The position numbers and the translations under genes were made by a program. Under the pieces are notes generated by a model. That model ran no database searches. It was not told the DNA's origin and saw nothing but the letters and a program-made list of their open reading frames with translations. From Bolinopsis microptera (lineage: Eukaryota; Ctenophora; Tentaculata; Lobata; Bolinopsidae), in contig NC_087072.1 in the NCBI RefSeq assembly GCF_026151205.1, positions 8,294,084 through 8,358,083 of the forward strand: a DNA stretch of 64,000 bases, read 5' to 3'. Shown piece after piece: positions 9,534 to 51,400 of this stretch (positions are counted from its first letter, which is position 1; each line of letters starts with the position of its first letter).

Positions 9534-9602
9534 ATGAGGTTCTCTATTCAGTGAAGAGAAAGGTTCTGTAAAGTGATCAAATAATGAAGAGAATTGTAAA
9601 AT

Positions 9603-10926
9603 AAAAAATTGACCAATATAATAGATGTGGATACTGGCGGGGAGGTGATCATTGTTTGTTTACATTAATAGGGAACACATGTTCAGGAGGCTGAGGAGGT
9701 GATCATTGTTTGTTTACATTTTAGGTGGAACACATGTTCAGGAGGCTGAGGAGGTGTTACATATTTTGTATTATAGAAGGCTTGTAACACATGTAACGCC
9801 TTCTTGTTACCCCCCTTTGAGGACCCCGAATTATTTTCTGAACGAAAGCTCAAAAATAACCGAGAAATCGACCTTCTTATTAACTCATTTTGATGACCGT
9901 TTCTAACCTAAAATTGCACGAAAAATCGATTTAGCTAGGTTTCAGAACCTATAAACACTTCCTTATCCCTCAAAATCGATGTTTTATAGGTTAGAATGCA
10001 AGCAACAAGCAACATATATTTTGATCCTTCGGTTCTACAGCTCTTGACCTAGGGCTGAAACCGAAAGATCGAGGCAATCCTAACCTTAACTGATCGAACT
10101 TGAGCGAAGAGCAGAGTACGAAAAAACACAGCAGGTAAGCATCTCATTTTTGTGACTGTTCCTCACCTGTACAACGTTGCACGAGAAATCGATTAAAGTT
10201 GGTTTTACAGCCCAATAACGCTTCCTTTTTCCTCAAAATTGTTGTGTTACTCAAACAAAGAACATGTTGATTCTGCAACGAAAGAACAAGGAGATCGTCT
10301 CATTAACAACTCAAACAGGTTCAACAGGAAGAGTGAGCACTGAGCAGAGGGACATTATATCGTATGTTTACATTTCTTATCTGTATTTGACCCTTTGTTC
10401 ACATTGTTATCTCTGCCACAGGTTGGCAATTTCAAGGTGCTCTTATCTGCAGACTGCACCTCGGTACACACGCCATGATTACGTCATACAGAACTAGAAA
10501 TTGTGTGAACCGTGACCATTACAACCGTGCCCAGTGCCCATGTACAATGCTAACTGTTGGGGGGGGGGGGGGGGGGGTTGGGGGTTGTTTACGATAGTCA
10601 AACAATCTTGATAGTGTATCAAGGTCTCTCCTCCAACTGACTGCTGTGCTTATCGTCCAGTCAGGAACAGAATAATAACATGATTTTTTAGTTATAGTAT
10701 GTCTCGGCTGAACTGCGGAGATAAGTACAGTTTGCTGTAATATGTACAGTTTGCTGTAATATGTGGTCGCGATTATCAACTCAGTGGAATTTCAAATGAT
10801 GAACTGTGCTTTAAGTTTACACCAACTGGAACCAAAGGAATATACCCATGAGTGCTCCCTAACTTAACTTGGACGGTAAGTGTTTGACAATAAAAACTAG
10901 GACACGAATTCTCTGACAAGAAATGT
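9603..10926 (+). repeat. Left terminal inverted repeat of the 15.3 kb transposon
   Basis: 1,324 bases, matching the reverse complement of 23613-24930. The 66- and 77-codon frames inside it are identical in both arms. The differences I could find are a 6-base length difference in a G-tract (10559-10580) and a substitution close to the outer tip (GACCAAT against GGCCAAT). Frames within the arm are non-coding by-products. Confidence 0.95.
9641..9751 (+). repeat. Two 54-base subterminal direct repeats
   Basis: GGAGGTGATCATTGTTTGTT begins at 9641 and again at 9695. Each copy continues to AACACATGTTCAGGAGGCTGA. The inner part differs (ATTAATAGG against ATTTTAGGT). The pair is present in inverted form near the right tip (about 24780-24893). 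Paired subterminal repeats of this kind are plausible binding sites for transposase or accessory DNA-binding proteins. Confidence 0.9.
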
Positions 10927-11425
10927 ATGTTACAGGAGCAGGCACTTGCGGTGTACACAAGGACGAGCATGGTTGTACCCATAATTGAAGTACCAGTTCA
11001 ACATGGTCCAGTTTATTTTCAACAGGTTAGACAAATAAATCAAAATATCAATTTGTGTGGTAAATTAGTTATATTGACGTTTTAAATATGTAAACTTGGA
11101 ATCAGTTTTAGAATGGTAATAAGAGTTTGTGTAACTTTAAATGTTGCACTTGCCCTCAAAGGCAAGTATGCGTTTATTTTGTGTGTGGGGTGTTTATTTA
11201 AGATGAGATAACACGGAAGTATTGGTAAAATTGATAACGGGTAATGAGTGCGCTGTTGGTATGGTTCGAGTTCAATGGACCTCTCTTTAGTTCGTTAACC
11301 AGCTACATTTTATTTCGGTTCATGGGTCAGATCTTTGCTGTACGCTATTAAAATTTCTATTTAAAATCTACTTGTACTGAATGAAACAGGCAGATATTTT
11401 AGCTTGTACCGTACAATTTTGTGTC
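10927..11425. promoter_or_regulatory. Internal non-coding segment upstream of gene A
   Basis: Unique sequence between the left arm and the pyrimidine tract, with no frame of interest. Because the first gene starts at 12148 on the + strand, this segment and the tract following it must contain its promoter, unless transcription begins inside the arm. No specific promoter motif was identified. Confidence 0.35.
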
Positions 11426-11429
11426 GTTT

Positions 11430-12045
11430 TTCCTCCTCAGTCCCCCTCCTCCTCCGTGTTCTCTTCTGTCCTCCTCCTCCCTCCTCCTCCTCCTCCCCCA
11501 GTCCTCCTCCTTCTCCTCATTCTCCCCCTCTTCCTTGTCCTGATGTCCTCTTCAGTCCTCCTCCTCTCCCGTGTTCCTCCCCCTTCTCCTCCTCCTTCTG
11601 CTCCTCCTCCTCCGTGTTTTCTTCAGTTCTCCTCCTCCTCCTCCTCCTCCTCCTCCTCCTCCTCCTCAGTACTCCTCATCCTCCTCATCCTCCTCCTCTT
11701 CCTCCTCCTCCTCAGTCCTCCTCATCCTCCTCTTCATCCTCCTGCTCCTCTTCCTCCCCAGTCCTCCTCCTCCTCCTCCTCCCCCTCCTCCTCCTCCTCC
11801 TCCTCCTCCTCCTCCTCCTCCTCCTCCTCCTCCTCCTCCTCCTCCTCCTCCTCCTCCTCCTCCTCCTCCTCCTCCTCCTCCTCCTCCTCCTCCTCCTCCT
11901 CCTCCTCCCCCTCCTCCTCCTCTTCCTCCTTGTTCTCTTCAGTCATCCTCCTCCCCAGTTCTCCTCCCCCTCCTTATTTTCCTCCTCCTTAGTCCTCCTC
12001 CTCCCCAGTCCTCTTCAGTCCTCCTCAGTCCTCCTCCTCTGTTTG
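11430..12045. repeat. Long TCC/CTC polypyrimidine tract
   Basis: About 600 bases of almost pure pyrimidine on the + strand, with the (TCC)n core nearly uninterrupted from about 11760 to 11910 and impure CTC/CCTCAGT variants on both sides. The long Leu/Ser/Pro and Glu frames that cross it in every phase are artefacts of the repeat. Such tracts can adopt triplex structures. It lies within the transposon, immediately upstream of gene A. Confidence 0.95.
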
Positions 12046-12147
12046 TCCGCTTGTATCCATGCTACCATGATACTATGTTCGTGCTTAAAAATTAACTGTG
12101 TATGTATCGACATGAATTTAATTTCCTCAAAGTCTTAGAATCTAAAT

Positions 12148-14627
12148 ATGCCGTTTTGGTGCACAAAGTGCGAGATCCCCGTCCAGTTCCTTGATAACAA
12201 TTGTTACAAAGGTCACTTGGCTTCTAAGCACGGGTTGAAAAACCTATTCAGTTGCGGTGGGTAAATACATAATCACCATTTTTTTCGTGCAAATCTTATT
12301 GCCGCACATCTATGCTGGCAACAGTGCAAAATGCACTTCATAAAGTTTTGGAACCTTCCCAACAGTTGAAAGTTATCTCTTGATGGATGTCCATGTCGCG
12401 TGGTGTTCCTTTCTAAAAACAGCAACAGATATATTTTTCAGTCAAGTGTGAAGCATCTTTCAACTCCTGTGCTTCTTTGACCAGGCACAGAAGCGGGTGC
12501 AAGTGCAACCAAGACCCTGTTCCCTGCACCTACAACGGCTGCCAATACAAGGGTGCCAACAAATACCTGGTGAGCTATTTTTATTAGTTGAGCTGCAGAT
12601 AAGAACAGTACGGTTTTGCTGTTGATTTAATACGTGCAGGTTTACGATTCTCCTGATAAGCACTACCTTTTTCAGCTCAAACAGCATTTCCAGAAAGTGC
12701 ACATGAGGGCGGAGGAGGTTAAGTGTCCCCGTTGTTGGAAGCTCTTTACCGGCAACTACAATCTTGTGAGGTACGTATACTGGGTTGAGCTAAAAAACAA
12801 TCAGAGTTCCTAGTACGTATGTTAACAATTTGGATAAAATTATTAACCATTTTACACCTTTGAAATCCCCTGTCTGACCGACTTAGCAAAATTCACCAGG
12901 AATACTGTTTCAGGCACCAGACGTTTGCCTGCACATGGGCGTTTCAGTTAGTGCCACAGTCATCGCAGGAATCGCAGGACCCGTACGACTTCGGAATTGT
13001 AGTCCACAGTTCTCCTCCGCCTCGATCACCAAAAACAGTAAGTTTCTCCACCTATTACGTGCTGGATTGTTCCTTTAGCACAGGGATTATTAGTACTTTG
13101 TTTTAAAGTTATGAGTGCAAAAAAACATTGTTCAATTTAAGATTGTCTGGTATATTTAAACATTCAGGTTGATATGACAGAAGATATGCCCTCTTCTGTC
13201 GACAGGATCCGGATAGAGGTCGATGACCATATGGACTTCGAAGACAGCAACGTAAGTTTGACTCCGCCATTGTATTCCAATCCAAATTTAGAAATATGTA
13301 CAGAAAGACTGAACTTAGTACTTAGTAAAATGTAATGATGGCAAAAACTTGCTAATTAAAGTATGTGTGTAATCTTCTTCAGGAAATCTGTATATCACAT
13401 AATTTAAATATTCTATGTCATCCAGGTTGCTACAATAGAGAAGCGGTTGTTAGGTGGGGTTGAGCTGCAGTCTGGGGATCTCCTGACGCTTGGTCCGAGG
13501 CAACTACTCAATGACGTCATCGTCTCTGGGTGGCTGCAAGTCCTGGTCGCCCAGTATGAGAACTCTTCCGAGTCCTTCCATGTACCGGTGCAGGGGCCAC
13601 TCCTTTACTTGCATATGAAGGATTTAACGCAGACAGAGGTAATTTTGATCATTCACTTACAATAATTTGTGCAATCCTAGGGTGAACCGTACTATATTAA
13701 TATACTGTACCAAACACTGTATTAGCACACTACAACATAATGTGGCGTTATCAGAGCTATTTACCTGTAATACGTACTGCAATATGTTTTTGACAGGTGA
13801 ACAACGACGCGTGGTGCCAAAGGGTAGCTCACACACTACTCTGTGGGCTCACCCTGCTAATCCCAGTCTGTGACGCCGGACATTGGCTCCTGATAGCCGT
13901 CACCACTTCCTCCATGAGGATTTATGACAGTTTGACGTCTTATGGACAGCAGTCATACACAAGACTCAGGAGGGCTTTCAGCATGCTCACACATGGCCGT
14001 AAGTCAAATTTGTATTATCAAAAATTTAATGTTTGAAGCAGGGCCCGGTATGGTAAGAGAATATGATTTAAAATGATTTAATTTTTGGTAACTGCAACTG
14101 GGAGTATATATAATGTTGTAGAATGGGTGCAGTGTGAATATTCCGTGAAGTATCTGGAAGAAAATAACAGTATCCGTAAAATGTTAAAAAACTAACATAT
14201 TCAGCACTGCTGGAGGTTCAGAAGATCCCCGTCCCCCAACAGACAAACGGAGTGGACTGCGGTGTATACATGCTTCTGTTTGCCGAGCGACTCATGCAGG
14301 TATGTTATTTTTTAAAATTGACATTGGCATAGAGTAATGTGGAAATATAAAATTGTATGGTGTGCATATGTAAGTTTTTCAATGATTCACATTACGGTAC
14401 AACCTTGATGTACGTTTCTGTGGACTACATTTGTACACAAGTTCTTCCCCTATCCATTGTCCATCACATGTAAGTTAAACCCGGAACGTTTATTAAGCTG
14501 AAGGACGAAGGTTCACGTAAAACTGAATTTAGTCTTCACCCAGGATATGAACATGGACTTGGAAACGTCTGTCAATCTGCGCGCACATCTTAGAGTGCGC
14601 ATCGAAGAGCAGGTTGAAGAGCATTGA
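12148..14627 (+). CDS. Gene A: C2H2 zinc-finger/Ulp1-like (C48) cysteine protease, 9 exons, 364 aa
   Basis: Exons: 12148-12260, 12485-12569, 12676-12770, 12914-13037, 13168-13251, 13426-13638, 13797-13998, 14205-14299, 14544-14627. All join in phase at GT-AG sites (1,095 nt). The start is the ATG of MPFWCTKCEIP. Residues about 5-30 form a C-x2-C...H-x4-H finger, and a second C2H2 unit follows at about 55-80 (CQYKG...LKQHFQKVH) with a CPRCWKLF unit after it. Residues about 168-337 are an Ulp1/SENP-type fold with catalytic H267 (AGHWLL), D282 (IYDS), Q318 and C324 (NGVDCGVYM), so the triad is complete. Ulp1 proteases process or remove SUMO-like proteins. Related domains occur in several eukaryotic transposon groups (KDZ, some Helitrons). 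Within this element it could modify host SUMO-dependent silencing or the element's own proteins; that role is inference. First gene of the transposon, about 500 bases before gene B. Confidence 0.88.
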
Positions 14628-14639
14628 AGACTAGCTTAC

Positions 14640-14945
14640 AGCAGATGTACTTACTTGTACTTGAAAAGGTCTCCTCCTAGTCGTTGGAGTAGCCTGCACC
14701 ACATAGTAACTCCTTTCTCCGGTGTATTAGACCTCTCCAGTGAACCCTGTCTGTAGCTTGTTGTTCTGCATCTTCTATCGTGATGTTATCGACACCTGTG
14801 GAGATTGCTGCATCCTCCCGGACACAAGACAACCAGTTTTTCCGAGGTCTACCTCTTGATCTTTTACCATGCTTTGGGATCCAGTGCAGAAGATAGTTGG
14901 GTATTCTTTCTTCTGGCATCCTCACCACCAGCAGATGACATTATA
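14640..14945 (-). mobile_element. 5'-truncated LINE 3' tail inserted between genes A and B
   Basis: The minus-strand frame 14928-14677 reads RMPEERIPNYLLHWIPKHG then KRSRGRPRKNWLSCVRED, with a DRVHWRGLI motif near the end. That is the characteristic C-terminus of a non-LTR reverse transcriptase ORF, just after the RT domain. Only the last 83 codons remain, so it is a 5'-truncated copy. A TACAAGTAAGTACA tail lies beyond its stop. The insertion sits in an intergenic gap of the transposon and does not disrupt its genes. Confidence 0.85.
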
Positions 14946-15145
14946 ATAATATATAAAATAAAAAAATAAAATAACTGTTCTTTAGAAGAACTCTTCTGAG
15001 TTTTTTTCCCCTATTCGTAGACAACTGGTCAGCTAACTTCGTTGAAATAATATTTTTGAAATGTTTCTTTGTACGTCCTGTGCCAATTGCCCAACACACC
15101 CACCCGTTCCCCTCATTTACACTAATATTCTCTCTCTCTCTTAGT

Positions 15146-17974
15146 ATGAGCCTATCAGCAGTCTACCTCATGACATTTTTCAGTCCGTCCCTTAAAAATG
15201 TTGTTCTGAAGGGACAGAGGGTATGCAGTTACTTTTTTGTATTACTTATATTTGCTCGGATCCATTCTGTAAGGTTTCCAAACCATACCTGGTCATAACT
15301 GTTTGGTGAATATTGTAGAGAGTAAACTGTGGCTGAACATTTTAATTTCAGGCGTACGATGGTAACAAAATTCTGTTCTTTGAGTACCGTGATGCAACTC
15401 TGAGAGCCGTCGTCCAGTCCTCTCACAAGGATCAATCTTACCAGCTTTCGGTTTGTTTAACCCAGAATTGTGAACTTGGTACTGAAGCCTTGAAATATCT
15501 GTTTACCGTCATTTGAAAGACTAGTTTATGTAACATCATGATACAGGAAAAGTAGAAATTAGTTTGAACGATGTCCAATTTAAGTAGTTCTAACCTCTAT
15601 GTGATTTGTTGGCAATGAAAGTTTTGTTCAGCGATTGCTGTCGACGTGATTTGTGCCAAATAGGAAAATTATTTCATAGTCTACAATTAAGAAATTATGT
15701 TCATATCCGTAGATGGAGTTGAACACGAAGGAAAAAACTGTACAGAAATACCACTGTGCCTGCAAAGTGGGTACGACACCTTGTTCACACATGGCAGCAA
15801 CTTTGATCTACGCTTCGAAAAATCTCTCGAAAACATCAGGTATTGCATAATTCACCAACTAGACATGAATCTTAATAATAACGGTTCCACAGAACGGTCA
15901 TAAAAAAATTTCATGCTCACCCTAATGCTGACTTAATACTTAGTTCCAGTGAGTTGGCTCAAGAAGCCTAAAACCGCCAAGAAAAAGCTTGAATCGATCC
16001 AGACACTGGATGCTTTGCTCCGACAGCCTTCTGCGAAGAAGATGTGAGTATGCATCGCGGTGTGAATTTACAATACTTTTTAAGGCGTAGCTCATAGGCT
16101 GCAAATTCAGTTAATCTAAAATGGCCTCCAACCTGACTTATTATACTGTACATTTGCAGGAGATTGGAGGAAAATGATGGTAATCCTGATCAACCGTGTG
16201 CTGTAGCGGACTTCTCCGCAGGGAGTAAACAATTCTATGACGACATGGACTCCATAATCCCTAACTTTGGATTGAAACTTGTGCTGTCAGAGGAGCCGGC
16301 GCCCGAAACTGTCCCCTTGATCAAGTGGGCAGGTATACTTGTGTACAATCTGCTACAGAAAGGTATGGTGATTTGTATATTGAACTACATGTAACTAATA
16401 TATACATGAAATCATCAAGTCATGTAAGACGGAACGTGTAATGTCGAGTACATTTGTAATACTGTTAAAATGACTAACTTAAGGAAACAGCTTCAAACAG
16501 AATATTCTGTTGTAATCCAAACATTTCTAATTTGTGCAGGGCAAACGGTCGACAGTGCACGTGAGTCTTTACGTGAGATTCAGCTTCCCGACGGGGACAT
16601 AGTACAGCTGGCAGAGGACACTACAGGCCAGTTCTCAAACATACTGTACTGTGCGGTGAAAAAGTTCAGGCTGACGAGCACAAAGTTCCATCAGGTGCTG
16701 ACTCTCCTGTCTGGTAGATCTAAACCTGGAAAAAAGTCAGAAAAGGGTAAATATGAAGGATCTTCTCAATGCTGTGCATAAGTGAAATGTTTTCAAGGAT
16801 ATTTCCATTACCTGTGAAGAGTGGTCCGCGACTTCACAATTTTCCTCACTAACCGATATAACATTTTGATGACCAATTTCCAGTTAAAACAAGAGAGGAA
16901 AGGATGACTGACCTGTTCTACGCTGCTAACCGTCTCGAGGGTCACTCTGCTCTAGAGTGGGGCACTACTCACGAGGACGAGGCTAGAAGGGAGTTTGCAG
17001 CTTTAACAGGTCTGCAGGTCAGTGCAGGTTGTAACTTGTAAACTGTTTGCGAAACTGCATACCTATCACAATGCCACAAATATGCATACCTTTCCAAACA
17101 ATCACTGCTACATCTCATAACATATTATACTAGGCTGCTACCGGTATATGACCTTATGGATTATTTTATAGTACCTTTTCCTAACTGTGGCACAATTTAA
17201 GGTAACTGAAACAGGGATATTTCTGGATAAGGAAACTTCCTGCCTTGGTGCATCACCTGACGGGTTGGTTGGACAGGACGGAACATTAGAGATTAAATGT
17301 ATTTTCTCTCTAAAAGACAAGTCTGTGGCAGAATGGGTAAGAAAGTGTCAGGCTCAGACAACAAAGGTTAGGAACGTGCCCAACATGCCGTATCTGCGAG
17401 CTGGACCGGATTCGGTTGAATTTAACTCCAACCACGCCTACTATGACCAGATACAGGGACAGTTGCATTTTACTGGTTTGTACTTTCAGGTTTCCAGATT
17501 GTAGAGTTAGAATAGCGATAATTTGGGGTGGACGACAATTGCCCAGTGTAATTACATTGCATAGGTACCATAATTTGTTACCATGGCAAAATCTCAAAAT
17601 TTAGAACATCAAATATTTGCTCAACAGTCCCTCAATGCCCTCAGGAAGGAAGGTGTGCTATTTCTTCCCCTGGACACCAAAAAAACCATATTTCTACATC
17701 ACAGTCCAGAAGGACCACTCCTACGTTCATAAGATTGTGCAACTCCAGACATTCTACTTCAATGAATTCATACCCCACATCCTCAACCAAGGTGAGCGGC
17801 ACTAATTTTGACCTGTACATTAAATTTTTTCCTGTACAATTCAGCAGTGCATGCAAATTACACAAGAGTTTCTCTGAACCACCACTTAGTCCCATATCAG
17901 CCAGCTAATTGAAACCTCTTTCAGCCGAGCACGATCTTGCAGAGCCATGCGTATCGGACTCCGATGACGAATAA
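15146..17974 (+). CDS. Gene B: SWIM zinc finger + YqaJ/lambda-exonuclease-type nuclease, 10 exons, 461 aa
   Basis: Exons: 15146-15220, 15352-15450, 15713-15839, 15944-16043, 16160-16332, 16540-16746, 16884-17017, 17202-17475, 17645-17791, 17925-17974. All are in phase (1,386 nt). A SWIM finger is at residues 73-84 (C73-x-C75...C82-x-H84, with PCSHMAATLIYAS after it). The YqaJ domain spans about 210-445: WGTTHEDEA at 286-294, then LGASPDGLVG with D325, then LEIKC with E335 and K337 (the D...E-x-K metal-binding core), then YDQIQGQLHFTGRK with Q388/Q390. All expected catalytic residues are present. YqaJ enzymes are 5'-3' exonucleases related to lambda Exo, and lambda Exo makes single-stranded tails for annealing. 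SWIM-YqaJ proteins occur in cnidarians, sponges and other animals and are associated with ISL2EU-type transposons. The start codon is the least certain part; an upstream exon is possible. The acidic ending is VSDSDDE. Confidence 0.9.
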
Positions 17975-18441
17975 TGTTTGCACCAGACTCTGCCACGGAC
18001 TTTAATACTTTAATTTGTGAACATTTGGTGGGGGGAGGGGGGTCGAGAAAACTGTCACAAACGTCAAACCAGTTTGCGTACAAACGACCACTGCTCGAGG
18101 AGGATATTCCTTTCAGTGCGATTCTAATTTCAACGAGGCCTGCACGACATCAACTTTCTAACTGATATATTGAAATCCCGGCCACAGATTACCTGTGCAC
18201 ACAAGTACACACAATCGCTTTCACACCACACTGGAGGCCCCGCATTGTTTTTGTGCGCAAAACTTACAAGGAAGGGTGCTATTTCTAATATATGTACAGT
18301 TGCCACTGCACTGGTCACATCGTTTGGTGAGGATATCACATAGCACTATAATTGTAAAAGTCAAAAATTGCATTAACCAACTTTTAATCCTAACTGATCT
18401 TTTAACGTTCAACTAAACCAAGTTTGTTATATTTAGAACAT
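17975..18441. other. Spacer between genes B and C
   Basis: 467 bases with no supported gene. It must hold the 3' end of gene B and the promoter of gene C. A G-rich stretch (GGTGGGGGGAGGGGGG) lies at about 18028-18045. Confidence 0.4.
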
Positions 18442-20928
18442 ATGTCACTGTGGAAGGTGTTTGAAGGGGCCAGGTACTGTGGAGGTGTGCGTGAGCACAG
18501 TCTCAGAAGATACAAGAGAATAAGAGACAACAGAGATAAGTTAGTGGAACTGGGTTTGATGACAGTAGATGAACCACTGGAAGGTTACCGGACTGAAGAA
18601 TGGGAGGAACACGCCACAGCTTACTCACAATGTAGGTCTAAACTATACTAATAATGCCCATAAATGTGTTTGTGTTTATGTGTGTGACTGACGCAGCCAA
18701 TAAGAATATTCTCTGGAAGTCGGTGAGTGGTAAAGAGTGCAAGTGTGTCCATTAAATCAAGGTTTTGAAAATCTTGTTCTGGTATCTTAACCATTAGCTC
18801 ACAATTCAGATGAGATGTTGCTGAATCGGTATTCAGATGGAGCGATAAAGCTGGAGGAATTTGTTAAGGCTGATCCCAGATACCCCTCTGACAGTGATAC
18901 GGACAGTGCTCCTGAAACGAGGAACAAGAATGTAAATGGTGAATCGGATTTTGCAGAATGTACAGACGAACGAAAAGTTAACCAGTACTCTGCTAACGAA
19001 GAAGCTGAAGGTCCTAAAGTAGAGGATCTAGAGATGTTCCTACACTCAGAACCTGAGTCTGTACCAGCATTGAAAGATCTATTTGTCAACAAGAATTTAA
19101 CTTCTCATCTCGGAGAAGGTCCTGTAGATGTGTGTAAATTGATCGCAGAAAACCCTGAGTTTACACATGAAATATGTGAGGCTAACATAGACTCTCTTAT
19201 GCCGGATGAGGAGTTCTATAAAATTACTTGTGAGACTTATCCTGGTGGCTGGGAGAAGTTCGTGGAGGACATGTTAGTAACACTGTATACTGGATAACTT
19301 TCAACTTGACCATAATCGCGTTTTGGAGCTTTAACTTGTGTTCCTTATTTGCATAAATATTTGTCAGAGTCCAAATTCTATTTAAATTTTGAACTTAGCA
19401 ATATGTTATGATATGTTCAATGGGTACTCCTTTTCAGGGAAAACGGAGAGTCCTCAGATGAGGAGATCGAGAGAATTGAGCTGCCCCCTGATCTCTACAA
19501 TGAACTTATATCAGACAAGAGTAATGATGTACCTGACGATGATGAGGAACGGTTTAAGTTTGGTGGAATAAACAAGGATCAAACAGATACTTGTCTTGAT
19601 CGAGTACTTGAGTTGTATGATAACTATCATAACATGACGCATGACGAGTGAGTTTTGATACTGTGTTGTCCTAGTTCGTATTAAAAGTTTCCTTTAAACA
19701 TACTGTAATGGCTTCACTTAACCGATAGTTTTCAGCATATGTTTCGCAATTGTAGTTGATCGCGTGGTGCTAACTGTACTTTTAAGATTGCTAACATGAC
19801 AATTCTTCATCTCGCAGGTATAACAAAAAGGTGAAGACGGTTCTCAAAGACAGGGATAGGATTGTTGTTCTAGATGATGATGGCGACAACACCAGACGAA
19901 GTACTAACAAAAGTAACATACTGCAAACCAAAGACTGTGTCAGAAAACCTGAATCTGATGACAACTTACCTTCTTGTAGCGGTGTACAGCACGATCTAGA
20001 ACATGGTGAGAACAATCTCTAGTAGCATTTAAGGAAGAAGGAGTCGTAAATGGTCAGTTAACACAAATGTATACCTTTATGCACGAGGCTGTGCAATATC
20101 ATTAAATAGTTCGTAACTTTATTCAAACTTACAGGTCAACAACATCATTGCACTGCAACCGGTTGTCTGAAGCTGTTCAAGACGCAGCTAGAGCTGGAGA
20201 CACACAAATGTGGGACGACTCGAGAAGTATCAAGGAAGGGGAAAGAGAAACTACACAAGTGTGAGACGTGCGGGAACATGTTTGGTTGGAGAAAGAGTCT
20301 AACAAGACACATTAGAACAGTACACGATGAAGTAGCGAGACTTACCTGTCCTTACTGTCAATATAGGACTGATCATCAGCACCACCTCACCCAGCATATT
20401 TTAACACACACGGGGGATAAGCAGTACAGGTGTACACATTGTGACTATACCACTGTTCAGAAAAATACCCTCACTACTCACATCTACCGTAACCACACAA
20501 ACAAGACACACAATTGTCAGTATCATGAGTGTGGTGTTAAGAAATCCTCTGAACAGGAACTGTATGATCATATCAGTTCAGAGCATGCACTACAACAATA
20601 CAGATGTGATGTGTGTCCTATGTCTTTCAAAAAACTTGATGGCCTTAAGAAACACAAGCTGACACACGACGATGATGAGTTCAAGTGTAGGTATTGTGGG
20701 AGACGGTTTCTGCGAGCAGACAACCTAAAAAGACATACTGTGATACACACCGGTAAGAGATCACACGAGTGTGATGTGTGTGGTAAGCGGTTTACTAGAA
20801 ACAGTAATCTCACAGTGCATATAAGAGTTCACACAGGAGCAAAACCCTACTCCTGCACTTACTGTGGTATGGAATTTAATGTAAGTAGTGCAAAAAACAG
20901 ACATGAAAGTAGCTGTAAATATAAATAA
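18442..20928 (+). CDS. Gene C: acidic protein with about nine C2H2 zinc fingers, 5 exons, about 622 aa
   Basis: Exons: 18442-18631, 18798-about 19284, 19438-19647, 19818-20005, 20135-20928. The second exon's donor is uncertain: a CT|GTATAC site at 19285 keeps phase and reads into the acidic next exon, but the site is weak, and the frame would otherwise stop at 19297. The first about 360 residues are rich in D/E with no recognised domain. Fingers then run from about residue 363 to the end, including CETCGNMF...RHIRTVH, CPYCQYRT...QHILTH, CTHCDYTT...HIYRNH, CDVCPMSF...KHKLTH, CRYCGRRF...RHTVIH and CDVCGKRF...VHIRVH. The linkers TGDKQY, TGKRSH and TGAKPY are of the TGEKP type, which suggests sequence-specific DNA binding. 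Target and role are unknown. Within a transposon, binding to the arms or to its own promoters is a reasonable inference. A polyadenylation signal AATAAA lies at 20987-20992. Confidence 0.8.
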
Positions 20929-20986
20929 CATTATAATATAATATTGTTTGTCTCAAACTTTATTTGTTTGAAAATAACATTTGCTG

Positions 20987-20992
20987 AATAAA
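20987..20992 (+). terminator. Probable polyadenylation signal of gene C
   Basis: AATAAA 58 bases after the stop codon of the C2H2 gene, at a usual distance for an animal mRNA 3' end. Confidence 0.6.
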
Positions 20993-21171
20993 GAAAGTGT
21001 AGATGCCGATTGCCGACTCATTTTTAAATTTTCCGAACTGCCCAGTTTTATCAATTGTAACAGCTTTGATACAGAACCGCTGCTCCTCAATCTAATTGTA
21101 TGCACGTGCAGCACTTCTATGTCAACTTGTTACAAGTTTTATATACTAACTTTTACATTAACAAGATTAAC

Positions 21172-23494
21172 ATGAAATGTTCAATTCCTGGATGTGGTAC
21201 GTTTGGAAGACGGCGTATACCAAAAAGAGCCCTTGAATCAGTGAAGCTCACGTACCCCACGTTAGTTGATTGATCCTAACAGCTTTCATATTCGTACATC
21301 CTTGGACACCTGCAATCATCATAAATACCATTATATAGAACACCACTCAAACTGTAACCTCTTTCAGGGCTTGGATTACCAATGACTCGAGAGTATGCGA
21401 CACCCACCAACAGCGGTACAAGAACTCTCTTTTGGAGGGAATCAGATTCGCCACCATAAAGAATTCTGCGCGAATGGTTTGTGCTCTTTGTCATCGTAAT
21501 TGTGTCAAACTGTTGTATCCAATTTTAGAACTATCCCAGACTCCTACATTTCATTATTATTCTATAATAAATGTCATTACTTAAACAAATCACTAAGTTT
21601 TCAACTTAACCGGTCCATAATTATTACTTCTCACGTCACGCCATCTTAGGTAACGTTGCCCCAACCGTAACCGCATATGAAATATTTACACAGGTTCACC
21701 AATACACTGGATTACCTAATGGAGAGGTATTTCTTGCCTTGCTGAAGTTCCTCCGGTCTTATCGCACCCAAACCTCCCTCACCTACGCTGTTACTGGCAA
21801 CCATCATTCGACCCTCCTGTACGAGGACCAACTGCTCATCACGTTGAAGAAACTGCGAGTTAATCTTCCTGATGATATTTTAGCTGTCGATTTTCAGGTA
21901 AGCTTTTTAGTAGCAACAGCGGTAGTTTGGGTAACAGCAGTTGACCTTTCAAATGTTGATTTTCGACTTCTTACATTTCAAAAGAGATTTAAAAATAGAT
22001 GCAGCTGTTCTAGGGACTGCTTCAAAACTTTTTTCCTATTATATTGCAACGGAACTAAGTTCAGGTAAATTCAGGTATCGAGATCACAGATAACATCGAT
22101 ATGGAGGTCCTGGCTGGATATCATGGTCAACAAATTCAAGACCCTGGTTGGCGACGAACTACCGTCACTAGCGAAGTGCCAGAAAGCCATGCCTGCATGC
22201 TTCGCTTCCCATCCCAACACTAGGATCGTGATTGACTGTACCGAGGTATGATTTGAGTCCATTACCAGAATCGAATGAGCGGCTCTTACTTTAGAGCTCA
22301 GACAGAATTATAACAGTCACAATAGATAAATTGACACAACATTTCACTTTAAACGTGACCAGTGAATTGGTGTTCTCTACAGCAGTACAATTACGGCGGG
22401 GTGCGAATTGTGATGTTCAAAATTTCATTTTGTTATTGCAGTTGTAGCAATTGAAAGTTCCTACAATCCACAGGTCCCAATTGAAGCTCCGTCCAACATT
22501 GAGTCGAGCGCCAAATGTTACAGCCATTATAAGTGTAAGTTCAGAAGATCATACCTTTCAGTAATGCTGAACTTGCAACGTAAATTACAGATCTTCTGCT
22601 TTCGTACCTCATACAATTTCCCCTGCATAATCATTCTGTTCCATCTCCAGCTACGCACACAGCCAAGTTACTAATCGGAATTGCGCCCAGTGGGGTAATC
22701 ACATATGTCAGCCGCTGTTACCCTGGTGGCACAACCGATAAGGAAATTGTAGTGGATAGTGCCATACTGCAGAAGGTGACTGTTGGTGACAACGTGATGG
22801 CTGACAAGGGGTTCCTCATTCACGACATTTTGCCCGAAGGTTAGTTCCAACCGTGCTACACTCGAAATATGAGATTTTTCTGAACGGGCCCCTATAACAC
22901 TAACAGTTAAAACCAACTTAAATCGTAGTATTTATATTTTGTATGCTGATTGCGAATCACCCAAATGATGCTCCTCTCGCGAGATAACGTGCTATGACTT
23001 ATGGTTTCTAATTTCTCGTTAAGGTTTCAGCATACGCTTAAGTTAGAAATCGGGTTTGTGTTAGGGTTAGGGTCATTCTGGGTGGTTAAGGTTTCAGAGC
23101 CAGCTAGAAAACGTGTTGAAACGTCACGTAACAGTCTAGTTGAGTAGTTGAGTGTAGAGTGATTAATCATCGTCCGGTTAGTTAAGAATAAGCGGAATAA
23201 AAAGCGAATTAAATTTCAGGAGTTACACTAAACATCCCAGCGGGGATGTGGGGCAAGACTCAGTTCACGCCGGAAGAAGTAGCAGCCAGCAGGAAAGTCA
23301 GCATCGCCCGCATCCACGTGGAACGCTCTATTGGCTATCTGAAGCGGTACAAGATTTTGGGAAACAAAGTTGTGGCGAAGATGTTGCCTTATCTGAGCGA
23401 CATCGCATTCGTGTGTGCCCAACTGGTCAATTTGAACCCTGTTTTTTTAAGGGAGGTGGACAACGATTTTTTTAAAATGACCAGGGCTACTTGA
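21172..23494 (+). CDS. Gene D: DDE_Tnp_4 transposase (HARBI1/ISL2EU-like) with N-terminal C2CH finger, 7 exons, 383 aa
   Basis: Exons: 21172-21251, 21368-21495, 21650-21897, 22075-22245, 22474-22534, 22651-22839, 23220-23494. All joins keep phase (1,152 nt). The N-terminus has C3-x4-C8...W29...C37-x2-H40, a THAP-like C2CH arrangement slightly shorter than usual, then C65-x2-C68. A helical segment (LPNGEVFLALLKFLRS) and a helix-turn-helix-like VSRSQITSIWRSWLDIM follow. The catalytic domain has D206 (RIVIDCTE), D281 (VMADKGF) and E327 (RIHVERSIG), plus GIAPSGVITYVS and TTDKEI, all hallmarks of DDE_Tnp_4. The complete triad and intact splicing argue for an active or recently active enzyme. The expected function is cut-and-paste transposition through the flanking arms. 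Intron 6 (380 bases) carries a dispersed repeat. AATAAA overlaps the stop region (23496-23501). Confidence 0.93.
22930..23190 (-). repeat. Dispersed telomere-like repeat copy inside intron 6 of the transposase
   Basis: On the reverse strand this reads like 62330-62520: a GATTAATCA(T/C)(T/C)..ACTC block, a GTCACGTGAC-like block, CTAGCTGGC(C/T)CTGA, AACCCTAACCCTAACAC and a TAACGAGAAATTAGA block, in the same order. A related, more diverged copy lies at about 40035-40420. It shortens or removes no exon, because it lies wholly within the intron. Confidence 0.7.
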
Positions 23495-23499
23495 ATAAA

Positions 23500-23612
23500 T
23501 AAAAAATTATGTTATTATTCTGTTCCTGACTGGACGATAAGCACCACAGTCAGTTGGAGGTATATTTTATTTAAACCTGCTAACTGCAGGTATATTTTAT
23601 TTAAACCTGCTA
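23500..23612 (+). repeat. Partial duplication of arm sequence at the inner edge of the right arm
   Basis: ATGTTATTATTCTGTTCCTG...GGACGATAAGCAC...CAGTCAGTTGGAGG occurs here and again inside the right arm (23859-23910). It is followed by a 30-base unit containing TATATTTTATTTAAACCTGC, present twice (from about 23561 and from 23591). This forms the 3' untranslated region of the transposase and suggests a replication slippage or template-switch event at the junction. Confidence 0.85.
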
Positions 23613-24930
23613 ACATTTCTTGTCAGAGAATTCGTGTCCTAGTTTTTATTGTCAAACACTTACCGTCCAAGTTAAGTTAGGGAGCACTCATGGGTATATT
23701 CCTTTGGTTCCAGTTGGTGTAAACTTAAAGCACAGTTCATCATTTGAAATTCCACTGAGTTGATAATCGCGACCACATATTACAGCAAACTGTACATATT
23801 ACAGCAAACTGTACTTATCTCCGCAGTTCAGCCGAGACATACTATAACTAAAAAATCATGTTATTATTCTGTTCCTGACTGGACGATAAGCACAGCAGTC
23901 AGTTGGAGGAGAGACCTTGATACACTATCAAGATTGTTTGACTATCGTAAACAACCCACCCCCCCCCCCCCCCCAACAGTTAGCATTGTACATGGGCACT
24001 GGGCACGGTTGTAATGGTCACGGTTCACACAATTTCTAGTTCTGTATGACGTAATCATGGCGTGTGTACCGAGGTGCAGTCTGCAGATAAGAGCACCTTG
24101 AAATTGCCAACCTGTGGCAGAGATAACAATGTGAACAAAGGGTCAAATACAGATAAGAAATGTAAACATACGATATAATGTCCCTCTGCTCAGTGCTCAC
24201 TCTTCCTGTTGAACCTGTTTGAGTTGTTAATGAGACGATCTCCTTGTTCTTTCGTTGCAGAATCAACATGTTCTTTGTTTGAGTAACACAACAATTTTGA
24301 GGAAAAAGGAAGCGTTATTGGGCTGTAAAACCAACTTTAATCGATTTCTCGTGCAACGTTGTACAGGTGAGGAACAGTCACAAAAATGAGATGCTTACCT
24401 GCTGTGTTTTTTCGTACTCTGCTCTTCGCTCAAGTTCGATCAGTTAAGGTTAGGATTGCCTCGATCTTTCGGTTTCAGCCCTAGGTCAAGAGCTGTAGAA
24501 CCGAAGGATCAAAATATATGTTGCTTGTTGCTTGCATTCTAACCTATAAAACATCGATTTTGAGGGATAAGGAAGTGTTTATAGGTTCTGAAACCTAGCT
24601 AAATCGATTTTTCGTGCAATTTTAGGTTAGAAACGGTCATCAAAATGAGTTAATAAGAAGGTCGATTTCTCGGTTATTTTTGAGCTTTCGTTCAGAAAAT
24701 AATTCGGGGTCCTCAAAGGGGGGTAACAAGAAGGCGTTACATGTGTTACAAGCCTTCTATAATACAAAATATGTAACACCTCCTCAGCCTCCTGAACATG
24801 TGTTCCACCTAAAATGTAAACAAACAATGATCACCTCCTCAGCCTCCTGAACATGTGTTCCCTATTAATGTAAACAAACAATGATCACCTCCCCGCCAGT
24901 ATCCACATCTATTATATTGGCCAATTTTTT
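23613..24930 (-). repeat. Right terminal inverted repeat of the 15.3 kb transposon
   Basis: 1,318 bases, the reverse complement of 9603-10926. It is shorter by six bases in the C-tract (about 23957-23974). Its outer tip ends ...ATATTGGCCAATTTTTT at 24930. Confidence 0.95.
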
Positions 24931-26293
24931 GTGTACGAATAATTTTCCCCACATAATTTTTCAACATTCTCCATTGTATTGGGACGCGAACAAATTTGGT
25001 GAGTAAGAATCCTCAAAAGTTTTTGTGTAAGGTCCTAGTTTAGAGGGAAAAACTTAAAGTTGGAAAAATATTCAATTTCCTGTTTTTTGACGTAAATTAT
25101 TTTCCAATTTCAAGCCTTGCTCCAAATGGCCAGGTTATATTATAGCTCTATTACGCTAATGCCAATGCCTACTTTCCCTACTATGCTCTCAATACCGATT
25201 ACCGATTTTAACCGTTTTTTATAGAAAATCATGGCGCATCTGGCTGCACTATATTATGTGGGTTATAGTATTAGTATGGTCTTTATGATATATAAATATT
25301 TTTATTGGTTACGTATGTCTTATTTGTTTAACAATACATTATTTGTTATTTTGTTAACATAATATGTCTTTATTGGTTAACAATACATCGTCACGGTGGT
25401 TACACACGTGCAACTCATCACCGGAATTCGGAGCTCTCAGTTAATTTCCTCTCATTATCACGTCTTACTTAGCAATCTGGGGAGTTCGGGTTATTAGTCC
25501 ATTTTAACCGTGTAATCATGGTACTAACGCTCTTGAAAATATAGTAGATCCCAGATATTGAAGTCCCAGACCCTAAAATACATGAAGTTAAACTATGCCT
25601 GTTGGGATGGGATCGATTTTGAGTATTTTACAGCACTGGCATTGGTTATTGACTGTTAGCATTCCTAATCAATGCTAATGCAGGGTGTACGATTTCTGGG
25701 GTTAGTTAAATATGGCTATTGTCATTGATCGGAGGCAAATGAGCGATCACCATATATAAACCCTGAAGGACCTTGCCGGGAATTGGTTCGATCCATCTAG
25801 TGCATTGTGCTGTAGCTTGTACATATCAGGCTTCTACATTTAGCGTCTATTCAACAACAGACAGCTGATATCCGACTGCTCTATGGACGTTTTTGATCGG
25901 TTATTCATACTTAATGACTTTGTTTATTATAATGACTTTCATCGTGGACGTTTCATGCAAAATGTGATTGATTTTAACCATATGCATGTCGAACCTTCAG
26001 CCCTCCAGCATATCAATCGCTGTCTTTAATCCAACCAAGGTTGACAATTCAGTTTTTCAAGCGTCCTTTTTATCCGATAATATTAGAAAGCAGCTCGTTC
26101 TGTTTTCCTCTTGTAAGTTATAAGCGAGTAAGTGCATAGTTAATCTTACATAATATCTATTTGTGTCTTCGAGTTTCCATGAAAATTTCTATTCTCTGCA
26201 TTGCCCAAAAGGGTCTAATAAGCTTTAAGTCTAACGTCAGAAGTGGTGATTGACTCTCGGGGAATCTGGGGATTAAATTAAATTCTTTTGCAG

Positions 26294-29960: not shown

Positions 29961-30091
29961 TCACCCTCATCCATAATGATCAGTGATCACAGTTAAAGAA
30001 ATAGGCTACAAAGATTTAATGAACTACAGTGCCTGGAGAGTTGAGATTAGTTTAAATCTTCCTGGAGGTGCGGGCAGAAGGAAAGTGCTAC

Positions 30092-30886
30092 TGTAGTACT
30101 TCCCTCCTGTAGCACTTCCCTCTTGTAGCACTTCCCTCCTGCAGCACTTCCCTCTTGTAGCACTTCCCTCCTGTAGTACTTCCCTCCTGTAGCACTTCCC
30201 TCTTATAGCACTTCCCTCCTGTAGCACTTCCCTCCTGTAGCACTTCCCTCCTGTAGCACTTCCCTCCTGTAGCACTTCCCTCCTGTAGCACTTCCCTCCT
30301 GTAGCACTTCCTTCTAGTAGTACTTCACTCCTTTAGCACTTCCTTCCAGTAGTACTTCCCTCCTGTAGCACTTCCCTCTTGTAGCACTTCCCTCCTGTAG
30401 TACTTCCCTCCTGTAGCACTTCCCTCTTATAGCACTTCCCTCCTGTAGCACTTCCCTCCTGTAGCACTTCCCTCCTGTAGCACTTCCTTCCAGTAGTACT
30501 TCACTCCTTTAGCACTTCCTTCCAGTAGTACTTCCTTCCTGTAGTACTTCCCTCCTGTAGTACTTCCCTCCTGTAGCATTTCCCTCCTGTATCACTTCCC
30601 TCCTGTAGCACTTCCCTCCTGTATCACTTCCCTCCTGTAGCATTTCCCTCCTGTAGCACTTCCCTCCTGTAGCACTTCCCTCCTGTAGCACTTCCTTCCA
30701 GTAGTACTTCCCTCCTGTAGCACTTCCCTCCTGTAGCATTTCCCTCCAGTAGCACTTCCCTCCTGTAGCACTTCCCTCCTGTAGCACTTCCGCTTCCCTC
30801 CTGTAGCACATCCCTCCTGTAGCACTTCCTTCCTGTAGTACTTCCCTCCTGTAGCACTTCCCTCCTATAGCACTTCTCTTCTGTAC
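30092..30886. repeat. Minisatellite of a 16-base unit, about 50 copies
   Basis: The unit is GTAGCACTTCCCTCCT with common variants (TAGTACTTCC, TCCAGTAG, TTATAGC). Because 3 x 16 = 48, every reverse frame encodes the same 16-residue peptide period (LQEGSATGGKCYRREV), which explains the long open frames on the minus strand. These are not genes. A higher-order repeat is visible: blocks around 30130-30330 and 30370-30530 share the same succession of variants. Confidence 0.95.
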
Positions 30887-48454: not shown

Positions 48455-51400
48455 GGAAAATTAATAACTTAGAGCGTAATAAGCAATATCTCCAAACGGG
48501 AGTTTTCTGAGAGGGTGAGAGGTTCTTTAATTAGAGCTAATGATTAAATGAGACCCACTAAAGGTACTAAATTAACCGGACTGCTAGCAAGGAATCGAGA
48601 GTGGAAATAAAAATAAAAGCGGAATAAATTTTAAGATAATGAAACAGAAACTGAAAGCTAAAATATATACCGTTCTAGAATGCCTCCGCAAACTATTGCT
48701 CCTTTGTAAAGCACGTGTTAGTAAGTGTAGTAAAAAGATAAAAATAATAAAGCTATAAAAATGAACGGAGCGTTGAAAATCTGAGAGGGTGAGACTGAGA
48801 GGTTCTTTAATTAATAACTTAGAGCGTAATAAGGAATATGAATATCTCCAAACGGAGTTTTCTGAGAGGGTGAGAGGTTCTTTAATTAGAGCTAATGATT
48901 AAATGAGACCCACTAAAGGTACTAAATTAACCGGACTGCTAGCAAGGAATCGAGAGTGGAAATAAAAATAAAAGCGGAATAAATTTTAAGATAATGAAAC
49001 AGAAACTGAAAGCTAAAATATATACCGTTCTAGAATGCCTCCGCAAACTATTGCTCCTTTGTAAAGCACGTGTTAGTAAGTGTAGTAAAAAGATAAAAAT
49101 AATAAAGCTATAAAAATGAACGGAGCGTTGAAAATCTGAGAGGGTGAGACTGAGAGGTTCTTTAATTAATAACTTAGAGCGTAATAAGGAATATGAATAT
49201 CTCCAAACGGAGTTTTCTGAGAGGGTGAGAGGTTCTTTAATTAGAGCTAATGATTAAATGAGACCCACTAAAGGTACTAAATTAACCGGACTGCTAGCAA
49301 GGAATCGAGAGTGGAAAAAAAATAAAAGCGGAATAAATTTTAAGATAATGAAACAGAAACTGAAAGCTAAAATATATACCGTTCTAGAATGCCTCCGCAA
49401 ACTATTGCTCCTTTGTAAAGCACGTGTTAGTAAGTGTAGTAAAAAGATAAAAATAATAAAGCTATAAAAATGAACGGAGCGTTGAAAATCTGAGAGGGTG
49501 AGACTGAGAGGTTCTTTAATTAATAACTTAGAGCGTAATAAGGAATATGAATATCTCCAAACGGAGTTTTCTGAGAGGGTGAGAGGTTCTTTAATTAGAG
49601 CTAATGATTAAATGAGACCCACTAAAGGTACTAAATTAACCGGACTGCTAGCAAGGAATCGAGAGTGGAAATAAAAATAAAAGCGGAATAAATTTTAAGA
49701 TAATGAAACAGAAACTGAAAGCTAAATATATACCGTTCTAGAATGCCTCCGCAAACTATTGCTCCTTTGTAAAGCACGTGTTAGTAAGTGTAGTAAAAGA
49801 TAAAAATAATAAAGCTATAAAAATGAACGGAGCGTTGAAAATCTGAGAGGGTGAGACTGAGAGGTTCTTTAATTAATAACTTAGAGCGTAATAAGGAATA
49901 TGAATATCTCCAAACGGAGTTTTCTGAGAGGGTGAGAGGTTCTTTAATTAGAGCTAATGATTAAATGAGACCCACTAAAGGTACTAAATTAACCGGACTG
50001 CTAGCAAGGAATCGAGAGTGGAAATAAAAATAAAAGCGGAATAAATTTTAAGATAATGAAACAGAAACTGAAAGCTAAAATATATACCGTTCTAGAATGC
50101 CTCCGCAAACTATTGCTCCTTTGTAAAGCACGTGTTAGTAAGTGTAGTAAAAAGATAAAAATAATAAAGCTATAAAAATGAACGGAGCGTTGAAAATCTG
50201 AGAGGGTGAGACTGAGAGGTTCTTTAATTAATAACTTAGAGCGTAATAAGGAATATGAATATCTCCAAACGGAGTTTTCTGAGAGGGTGAGAGGTTCTTT
50301 AATTAGAGCTAATGATTAAATGAGACCCACTAAAGGTACTAAATTAACCGGACTGCTAGCAAGGAATCGAGAGTGGAAATAAAAATAAAAAGCGGAATAA
50401 ATTTTAAGATAATGAAACAGAAACTGAAAGCTAAAATATATACCGTTCTAGAATGCCTCCGCAAACTATTGCTCCTTTGTAAAGCACGTGTTAGTAAGTG
50501 TAGTAAAAAGATAAAAATAATAAAGCTATAAAAATGAACGGAGCGTTGAAAATCTGAGAGGGTGAGACTGAGAGGTTCTTTAATTAATAACTTAGAGCGT
50601 AATAAGGAATATGAATATCTCCAAACGGAGTTTTCTGAGAGGGTGAGAGGTTCTTTAATTAGAGCTAATGATTAAATGAGACCCACTAAAGGTACTAAAT
50701 TAACCGGACTGCTAGCAAGGAATCGAGAGTGGAAATAAAAATAAAAGCGGAATAAATTTTAAGATAATGAAACAGAAACTGAAAGCTAAAATATATACCG
50801 TTCTAGAATGCCTCCGCAAACTATTGCTCCTTTGTAAAGCACGTGTTAGTAAGTGTAGTAAAAAGATAAAAATAATAAAGCTATAAAAATGACGGAGCGT
50901 TGAAAATCTGAGAGGGTGAGACTGAGAGGTTCTTTAATTAATAACTTAGAGCGTAATAAGGAATATGAATATCTCCAAACGGAGTTTTCTGAGAGGGTGA
51001 GAGGTTCTTTAATTAGAGCTAATGATTAAATGAGACCCACTAAAGGTACTAAATTAACCGGACTGCTAGCAAGGAATCGAGAGTGGAAATAAAAATAAAA
51101 GCGGAATAAATTTTAAGATAATGAAACAGAAACTGAAAGCTAAAATATATACCGTTCTAGAATGCCTCCGCAAACTATTGCTCCTTTGTAAAGCACGTGT
51201 TAGTAAGTGTAGTAAAAAGATAAAAATAATAAAGCTATAAAAATGAACGGAGCGTTGAAAATCTGAGAGGGTGAGACTGAGAGGTTCTTTAATTAATAAC
51301 TTAGAGCGTAATAAGGAATATGAATATCTCCAAACGGAGTTTTCTGAGAGGGTGAGAGGTTCTTTAATTAGAGCTAATGATTAAATGAGACCCACTAAAG

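Follow-up and report, generated by a model that had tools for sequence, protein, structure and literature searches.

We describe a four-gene DNA transposon of the lobate ctenophore Bolinopsis microptera, found in a 64,000-nucleotide stretch of contig NC_087072.1 (positions 8,294,084 to 8,358,083 of the forward strand) that we refer to, at its full length, as the window. The element spans 15,288 bp, from position 9623 to position 24910, with an AT dinucleotide on either side. It carries genes that we call A, B, C, and D, predicted to encode, respectively, a zinc finger protein with a Ulp1 protease domain, a YqaJ nuclease, a relative of the host's PRDM9-like proteins that is missing the PR/SET domain, and a DDE transposase. 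We consider it very likely that this is a recently active and probably autonomous ISL2EU-like transposon with four maintained genes, of which gene C was captured from the host. All copies, empty sites, and host loci discussed below are from the B. microptera genome, with C-numbers denoting its chromosomes.

The bounds of the element were set by comparing its termini with those of other copies. The initial annotation had placed it at 9603-24930, which located the element correctly but overshot each end by 20 bp. The window copy starts AGATGTGG and ends CCACATCT. The same annotation described 1.3-kb inverted arms around four spliced genes on one strand, and this description stands: positions 9586-10926 and 23613-24947 are 99% complementary, and the genes, whose exon models were assembled manually using open frames and GT-AG sites, have GT-AG borders at all 25 introns of the window copy, with consistent phases. 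Within the arms, the terminal inverted repeats (TIRs), lie subterminal 55-bp repeats that we take as candidate binding sites. The parts of the element are as follows.

9623..24910, + strand: complete element; end motif at both termini in 21 of 24 sequences, with empty sites
9621..9622, no strand: AT target-site duplication, left, from comparison of flanks
24911..24912, no strand: AT target-site duplication, right, from comparison of flanks
9623..10926, + strand: left TIR or arm, 1.30 kb, 99% complementary to the right arm, with at least 110 matches in the genome
23613..24910, - strand: right TIR or arm, 1.30 kb, from its complementarity to the left arm
9641..9756, + strand: 55-bp direct repeat in two subterminal copies, with a mirror pair at 24777-24892
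11431..12039, + strand: TCC-rich tract between the left arm and gene A
12148..14627, + strand: gene A, 9 exons, 386 amino acids (aa); C2H2/C2HC-type fingers and Ulp1/C48 protease
Gene A exons, + strand: 12148-12256, 12442-12569, 12676-12770, 12887-13037, 13168-13251, 13426-13638, 13797-13998, 14205-14299, 14544-14627
15713..17974, + strand: gene B, 8 exons, 413 aa; CxC...CxH motif and YqaJ nuclease, with further upstream exons possible
Gene B exons, + strand: 15713-15839, 15944-16043, 16160-16362, 16540-16746, 16884-17017, 17202-17475, 17645-17791, 17925-17974
18442..20928, + strand: gene C, 5 exons, 614 aa; N-terminal region of the host PRDM9-like type and eight C2H2-type fingers, PR/SET absent
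Gene C exons, + strand: 18442-18631, 18810-19272, 19438-19647, 19818-20005, 20135-20928
20006..20134, + strand: gene C intron of 129 bp; at the same point the first gene of host locus L047 has about 2.1 kb with knuckle and PR/SET exons
21172..23494, + strand: gene D, 7 exons, 386 aa; THAP-like C-C-C-H motif, HTH_Tnp_4, and DDE_Tnp_4 transposase
Gene D exons, + strand: 21172-21260, 21368-21495, 21650-21897, 22075-22245, 22474-22534, 22651-22839, 23220-23494

That the four genes move as a single unit, as had been proposed from the window alone, is borne out by the rest of the genome. A search with each gene region recovered three further full-length copies on other chromosomes, with the gene order from A to D identical in each.

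C5:5699183-5716012: full-length copy, 16,830 bp; end motif at both termini, AT on both sides
C12:8665187-8680721: full-length copy, 15,535 bp; end motif at both termini, AT on both sides
C4:14226636-14241301: full-length copy, 14,666 bp; end motif at both termini, AT on both sides

These three copies are 99.2-99.8% identical to one another and 90-91% identical to the window copy, and we therefore recognize two subfamilies. A further 19 arm-bearing copies (L009-L028) are shorter, most of them through internal deletions. Among these derivatives, one on C7, at 99-100% identity, retains D together with most of the final exon of C, one at C5:5610 kb retains the start of gene A, and several short copies retain the end of D only. 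In addition, a locus on C3 (L048) has one arm within the stretch fetched and retains C from exon 2 to exon 5. Arms elsewhere thus do enclose A or C, in the three full-length copies, the C7 copy, the C3 locus, and the short C5 copy, and genes A to C are not the single-copy host genes that the initial annotation had considered they might be. Two stretches of C9:9112804-9125381 (L049 and L050) hold decayed remnants of B and A, possibly of an older element of the same kind.

The element inserts at AT with a 2-bp duplication. Flanking dinucleotides are equal in 19 of the 21 copies with both ends readable (18 AT and one AG) and unequal in two, while AT makes up 0.088 of the dinucleotides in the flanks; the 21 are the 24 sequences less L013 and L014, which are two pieces of one copy, and L025, which has an unreadable end. 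Empty sites had been suggested as a check, and paralogous ones were found. The joined flanks of 18 of the 21 sites (L009, L018, and L023 omitted), searched as a single query, gave 41 matches in the genome, many spanning the junction. Six of the 41 were fetched and aligned, and five of these alignments are ungapped across the junction with a single copy of the dinucleotide; two of the five belong to the full-length C5 copy.

The reading frames of these copies are well preserved. No internal stop interrupts any of the four genes in the window, C5, or C12 copies, and every splice-site pair of the window and C12 copies is GT-AG. Between the window and C5 copies, the exons differ by one indel (3 bp) in 5,409 columns. 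The non-exon columns from the first gene to the last number 7,618 and contain 49 indels, 40 of them of a length not divisible by 3. For the same pair, the ratio of nonsynonymous to synonymous divergence (dN/dS; NG86, intervals by codon bootstrap) is 0.22 (0.14-0.34) for A, 0.18 (0.07-0.40) for B, 0.45 (0.31-0.65) for C, and 0.21 (0.10-0.40) for D. These patterns indicate that selection has maintained all four reading frames.

Synonymous divergence (dS) is itself uneven. In A it is 1.22 in the finger region and 0.06 in the protease domain (Fisher p 2e-17), and in D it is 0.245 in the THAP-like part against 0.067 (Fisher p 0.003). For C, the fingers (0.156) and the N-terminal part (0.080) give a Fisher p of 0.056, and we claim no difference there. 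The arms, along with the introns near the A fingers (12148-13251) and the THAP-like exon (21172-21260), are also more diverged between the window and C5 copies. The dS contrasts indicate that the recognition parts of A and D differ in history from their catalytic parts, and the recognition modules may have been exchanged together with the arms, as blocks.

Gene D ties the element to a known group. Its product matches DDE_Tnp_4 (5.1e-40) and HTH_Tnp_4 (5.6e-12) in Pfam, with a putative catalytic triad of D209/D284/E330. Without a Pfam THAP match, its C-C-C-H residues align with the THAP region of relatives; PF05485 is found in 29 (counted by eye) of the 120 transposase relatives listed out of 623. 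These 120 are 32-46% identical to D, and most are unnamed, with the named ones coming from insects, fish, molluscs, a tick, and a sponge. The catalytic residues of D, B, and A predicted in the initial annotation are all present with the spacings it gave, although its numbering was shifted. Likewise, its domain descriptions were right as far as they went, but missed the fingers of A, the PRDM9-like kinship of C, the CxC...CxH motif of B, and the THAP-like motif of D.

In the portion of Han et al. 2015 available to us, ISL2EU elements of the PHIS superfamily are defined by a transposase with DDE, HTH, and THAP parts, a YqaJ second gene, and AT duplications (PMC4482050). Published elements are there given as having mostly two open reading frames (ORFs), an average length of about 4.8 kb, TIRs of 6-259 bp usually starting from GG, and the target A|AT|T, and the role of the second gene is given as unknown (PMC4482050). 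The present element is like these in its DDE, HTH, and THAP-type transposase, its YqaJ gene, its AT duplications, and its animal host, and the ISL2EU affinity first proposed for it is upheld on the first three counts. Since these three features agree and the TIRs, target, and size do not, we call it ISL2EU-like, a variant of the group. The PHIS relatives Harbinger, Pangu, Nuwa, and Spy have a DDE domain related to that of D, yet as far as that source describes them they differ in their duplications (TWA, ANT, CWG, C|TNA|G, or none) and in having a Myb/SANT second ORF or none.

Gene B would be the counterpart of the second ISL2EU gene, with a Pfam match to YqaJ (9.9e-17) and a predicted catalytic set of D277/E287/K289. 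It also has a CxC...CxH motif, without a Pfam match, that we take to be SWIM-like. Outside the elements, B is represented by decayed pieces on C9, and C3 and C2 hold two remote matches to YqaJ.

The element carries two genes that are not part of the two-ORF ISL2EU set, namely a finger-Ulp1 fusion, gene A, and a PRDM9-like gene, gene C. Gene A is predicted to encode a SUMO-type protease. Its Peptidase_C48 match in Pfam is at 5.1e-11 (43.2 bits, cut-off 20.7), and H289, D304, Q339-340, and C346 align with SENP1 residues that we presume to be catalytic. Four C2H2/C2HC-type fingers can be discerned by eye at the N-terminus; they score 18.1 bits in Pfam, under the cut-off of 25.2, and solved finger proteins match at 1.4e-4. 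None of 2,060 candidates from a search of 5.8 billion proteins is related to A at E 0.001, in a search by shared short words and length that remote kin can escape, and in its own genome full-length matches to A are confined to the four full-length elements. There is also a remote match at C11:532867 (23%), perhaps a host gene of the Ulp1 type. On C12, a tandem array of Ulp1-like sequences (C12:12717288-12745308 and C12:12992384-12994261) is related to the protease domain of A only. Adjacent matches to A and D recur along this array, and one of its units (L046) contains a stop and is split by a transposase gene fragment of 601 bp (94% identical).

Other mobile elements with Ulp1 genes have been described, namely plant MULE (Kaonashi) and CACTA elements and oomycete Cryptons (PMC2528002, PMC3212892). 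These elements encode an Ulp1/C48 protease as here, but have other transposases or recombinases, and the parts of those reports available to us do not describe a finger fusion, a YqaJ gene, or a PRDM-like gene in them. The combination of YqaJ, transposase, and Ulp1 was not found in any of the open-licence PMC papers searched. Fungal TET/JBP DNA transposons, some of them Harbinger-type, offer another parallel, in that a chromatin-modifier gene sits beside the transposase; as far as that account goes, they carry a dioxygenase, whereas here we see a relative of a chromatin factor without its enzyme domain (PMC12730594).

Gene C has an N-terminal region of about 350 residues followed by its finger array (Pfam zf-H2C2_2, 8e-31). 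The end of its exon 2 (19272) was placed by host homologues, and the Pfam scan used a 618-aa form of the protein. Residues 1-354 have two matches at E 0.001 among 1,825 candidates from the 5.8 billion proteins, both of them in B. microptera. One, P0122, is apparently the C3 locus L048 described above. The other, P0121, is a 999-aa protein that NCBI names PRDM9-like. Its residues 1-372 and 732-997 match the element, with 72% identity to gene C in the N-terminal region and 64% in the finger array, while residues 373-731, which hold a CxxC knuckle and the PR/SET domain, are unmatched there. No Pfam SET or PR match is found in gene C. Gene C thus shares the N-terminal region and fingers with the host PRDM9-like protein P0121, and differs in having neither knuckle nor PR/SET.

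Compared with solved structures, the PR/SET domain of P0121 matches PRDM9 best (1.5e-19), followed by PRDM12 (1.9e-15) and PRDM11 (2.1e-15). Neither P0121 nor gene C has a Pfam match to KRAB or SSXRD (at 0.1 for P0121), and for this reason we call P0121 only PRDM9-like; both domains were inferred to be necessary in vertebrates, according to the parts of that study available to us (PMC5519329). We read five host PRDM9-like loci (L047, L051, L052, L053, and L054), and SET exons are present in all four that could be traced from N-terminal exons to fingers (the first gene of L047, L051, L052, and L054). In unrooted trees of the central and finger regions, the element C genes form a single clade with support of 1.0. 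Their identity in the central part is 83-85% with a host group on C10 and C5 and 76-77% with the diverged L051. The simplest reading is that the element most likely captured a host PRDM9-like gene from which PR/SET was then lost, with some doubt left by L053. The wider family of PR/SET and C2H2 genes is partly tandem-amplified, with members at C10:349-393 kb, 857-893 kb, 13.125 Mb, and 18.25 Mb, as well as at C13:14.486 Mb, C5:22.43 Mb, and C3:12.25 Mb.

The fingers of the host proteins have diverged at their predicted DNA-contact residues. Between P0121 and L047a, the one pair compared, 16 of 32 contact residues differ, as against 13 of 236 others (p 8e-10). Such divergence marks those vertebrate PRDM9s that are thought to direct recombination, according to the same partly available study (PMC5519329). 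For P0121, with no recognizable KRAB or SSXRD, a role in recombination is at most a possibility. Among the element C fingers, the corresponding figures are 7 of 32 and 12 of 130 (p = 0.052), and we do not claim positive selection.

These parts suggest a division of labor. D would use its THAP-like and HTH parts to bind the long inverted arms, cut with its DDE site, and rejoin the element at AT, the cutting and joining being as expected from knowledge of the family. B may trim or resect DNA ends near the site of excision. The zinc fingers of A would bring the SUMO-type protease to the element, where it could strip SUMO from transposition or silencing complexes; the initial annotation had C mark the arms, and since A has fingers of its own, it too could be the arm-bound factor. 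With its methyltransferase lost, C would bind DNA without writing a histone mark, and might direct the element to chromatin sites or compete there with host PRDM9-like proteins. This raises the possibility of an arms race, in which the element stole the fast-evolving DNA-recognition half of a PRDM9-like system in an early-branching animal, discarded the methyltransferase, and deployed C as a decoy or targeting factor. C and the SUMO protease tethered by its fingers would then act either in opposition to the host proteins or in concert with them. We put this forward tentatively, as an idea that may well prove wrong.

Other histories could account for parts of these data. Movement might be driven by D alone, or by D with B, with A and C being passenger host genes caught between the arms, as in plant transduplication. 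Gene C does belong to a host gene family, and Ulp1 copies resembling A also occur outside the element, in the array at C12:12.717-12.745 Mb. Furthermore, four derivatives (L018, L019, L021, and L022) share a deletion structure without A, B, or C and sit at different sites with AT duplications, so that none of the three genes is required in cis. However, these derivatives are explained as well by proteins supplied in trans, and passengers would be expected to decay, whereas across two subfamilies A and C have kept their frames and splice phases, and their dN/dS is far below 1. We regard passengers as unlikely, if still worth serious attention. A reversed direction of transfer for C seems more improbable: the host array would have arisen from the transposon, or from an ancestor without SET, with the host later gaining PR/SET between the N-terminal part and the fingers. 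The restriction of relatives of the C N-terminal region at E 0.001 to B. microptera fits this order of events, as do the fingers of L053, which have no SET nearby and are placed beside the element by the finger tree (0.89). Against it, PRDM proteins are built with PR/SET ahead of an array of fingers, the host PR/SET and knuckle align to PRDM9, and a PR/SET domain is present even in the diverged locus L051.

Two further accounts have next to no chance of being correct, and we reject both. Segmental duplication of one locus might be suspected from the identity of over 99% among three of the full-length copies, yet the four loci differ in their flanks, end in the same termini, and are bordered by 2-bp duplications, and there are matching empty sites, those of the C5 copy refuting duplication there. 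Similarly, a two-gene ISL2EU element might by chance have inserted around, or been invaded by, two unrelated genes in the window copy, and the finger exons of A and the left arm are indeed far more diverged than the core. The other full-length copies contradict such a juxtaposition, since every full-length copy, in either subfamily, has the same four genes arranged identically.

Several observations weigh against our preferred account, that of a recently active ISL2EU-like transposon with four maintained genes and a captured gene C. Only two of the four full-length copies, those of the window and C12, appear fully intact: in the C5 copy, the acceptor of D intron 2 reads TTAT where the others have TTAG, and in the C4 copy a deletion took the last residues of A and exons 1-2 of B. 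The C12 copy is also the one whose empty-site alignment, the sixth examined, is gapped at the junction. With four genes, 15.3 kb, and 1.3-kb TIRs that start AGATGT, the element departs from ISL2EU as described in the available part of the published account, and the A|AT|T context is not the rule, with AATT at five of the 18 AT copies (counted by eye); the bases adjoining the duplicated AT are A or T at 35 of 36 places. Selection on C is less certain for its N-terminal part, where the upper bound of dN/dS is 1.05. Because divergence is uneven, the subfamilies are mosaic, and a whole-gene dN/dS then averages blocks of different age. The direction in which C was transferred depends on unrooted trees and on taking PR/SET as ancestral. 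Lastly, L053 (C2:13343500-13348500) matches only in the fingers, 71% identical to those of P0121, with no match to SET or the N-terminal region in the 2 kb upstream, and it joins element C in the finger tree (0.89) though only 74-76% identical; relatives lacking SET therefore occur beyond the element as well. The changed acceptor of the C5 copy and the SET-less L053 lowered our confidence slightly, in the arms-race idea too, and made the reversed transfer of C a little less improbable.

Since the element keeps all four genes under purifying selection, one can test directly how a SUMO-type protease and a captured DNA-binding protein of chromatin benefit a transposon. The element also bears on the age of rapidly evolving PRDM9-like genes, and on what drives their evolution, be it recombination, as the available portion of that work argues for vertebrates (PMC5519329), or transposons. 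Among the open-licence PMC papers listed, we found none on a PRDM9-like gene inside a transposon, and the three that bring together PRDM9 and ctenophores concern other matters, judging by title and abstract.

Minor features of the window include, in the spacer between genes A and B, a frame on the - strand (14677-14940) that by eye resembles the end of a non-LTR (long terminal repeat) retrotransposon reverse transcriptase; positions 14639-14928 of the same spacer have a 70% copy between two host PRDM9-like genes (L047 6162-6449). Outside the element lie a tandem repeat of a 16-bp unit, CTGTAGCACTTCCCTC, in 49 copies at 30091-30885, and a 10-kb satellite array at 48459-58564, with a 355-bp unit in 28.5 copies and 95% matches.

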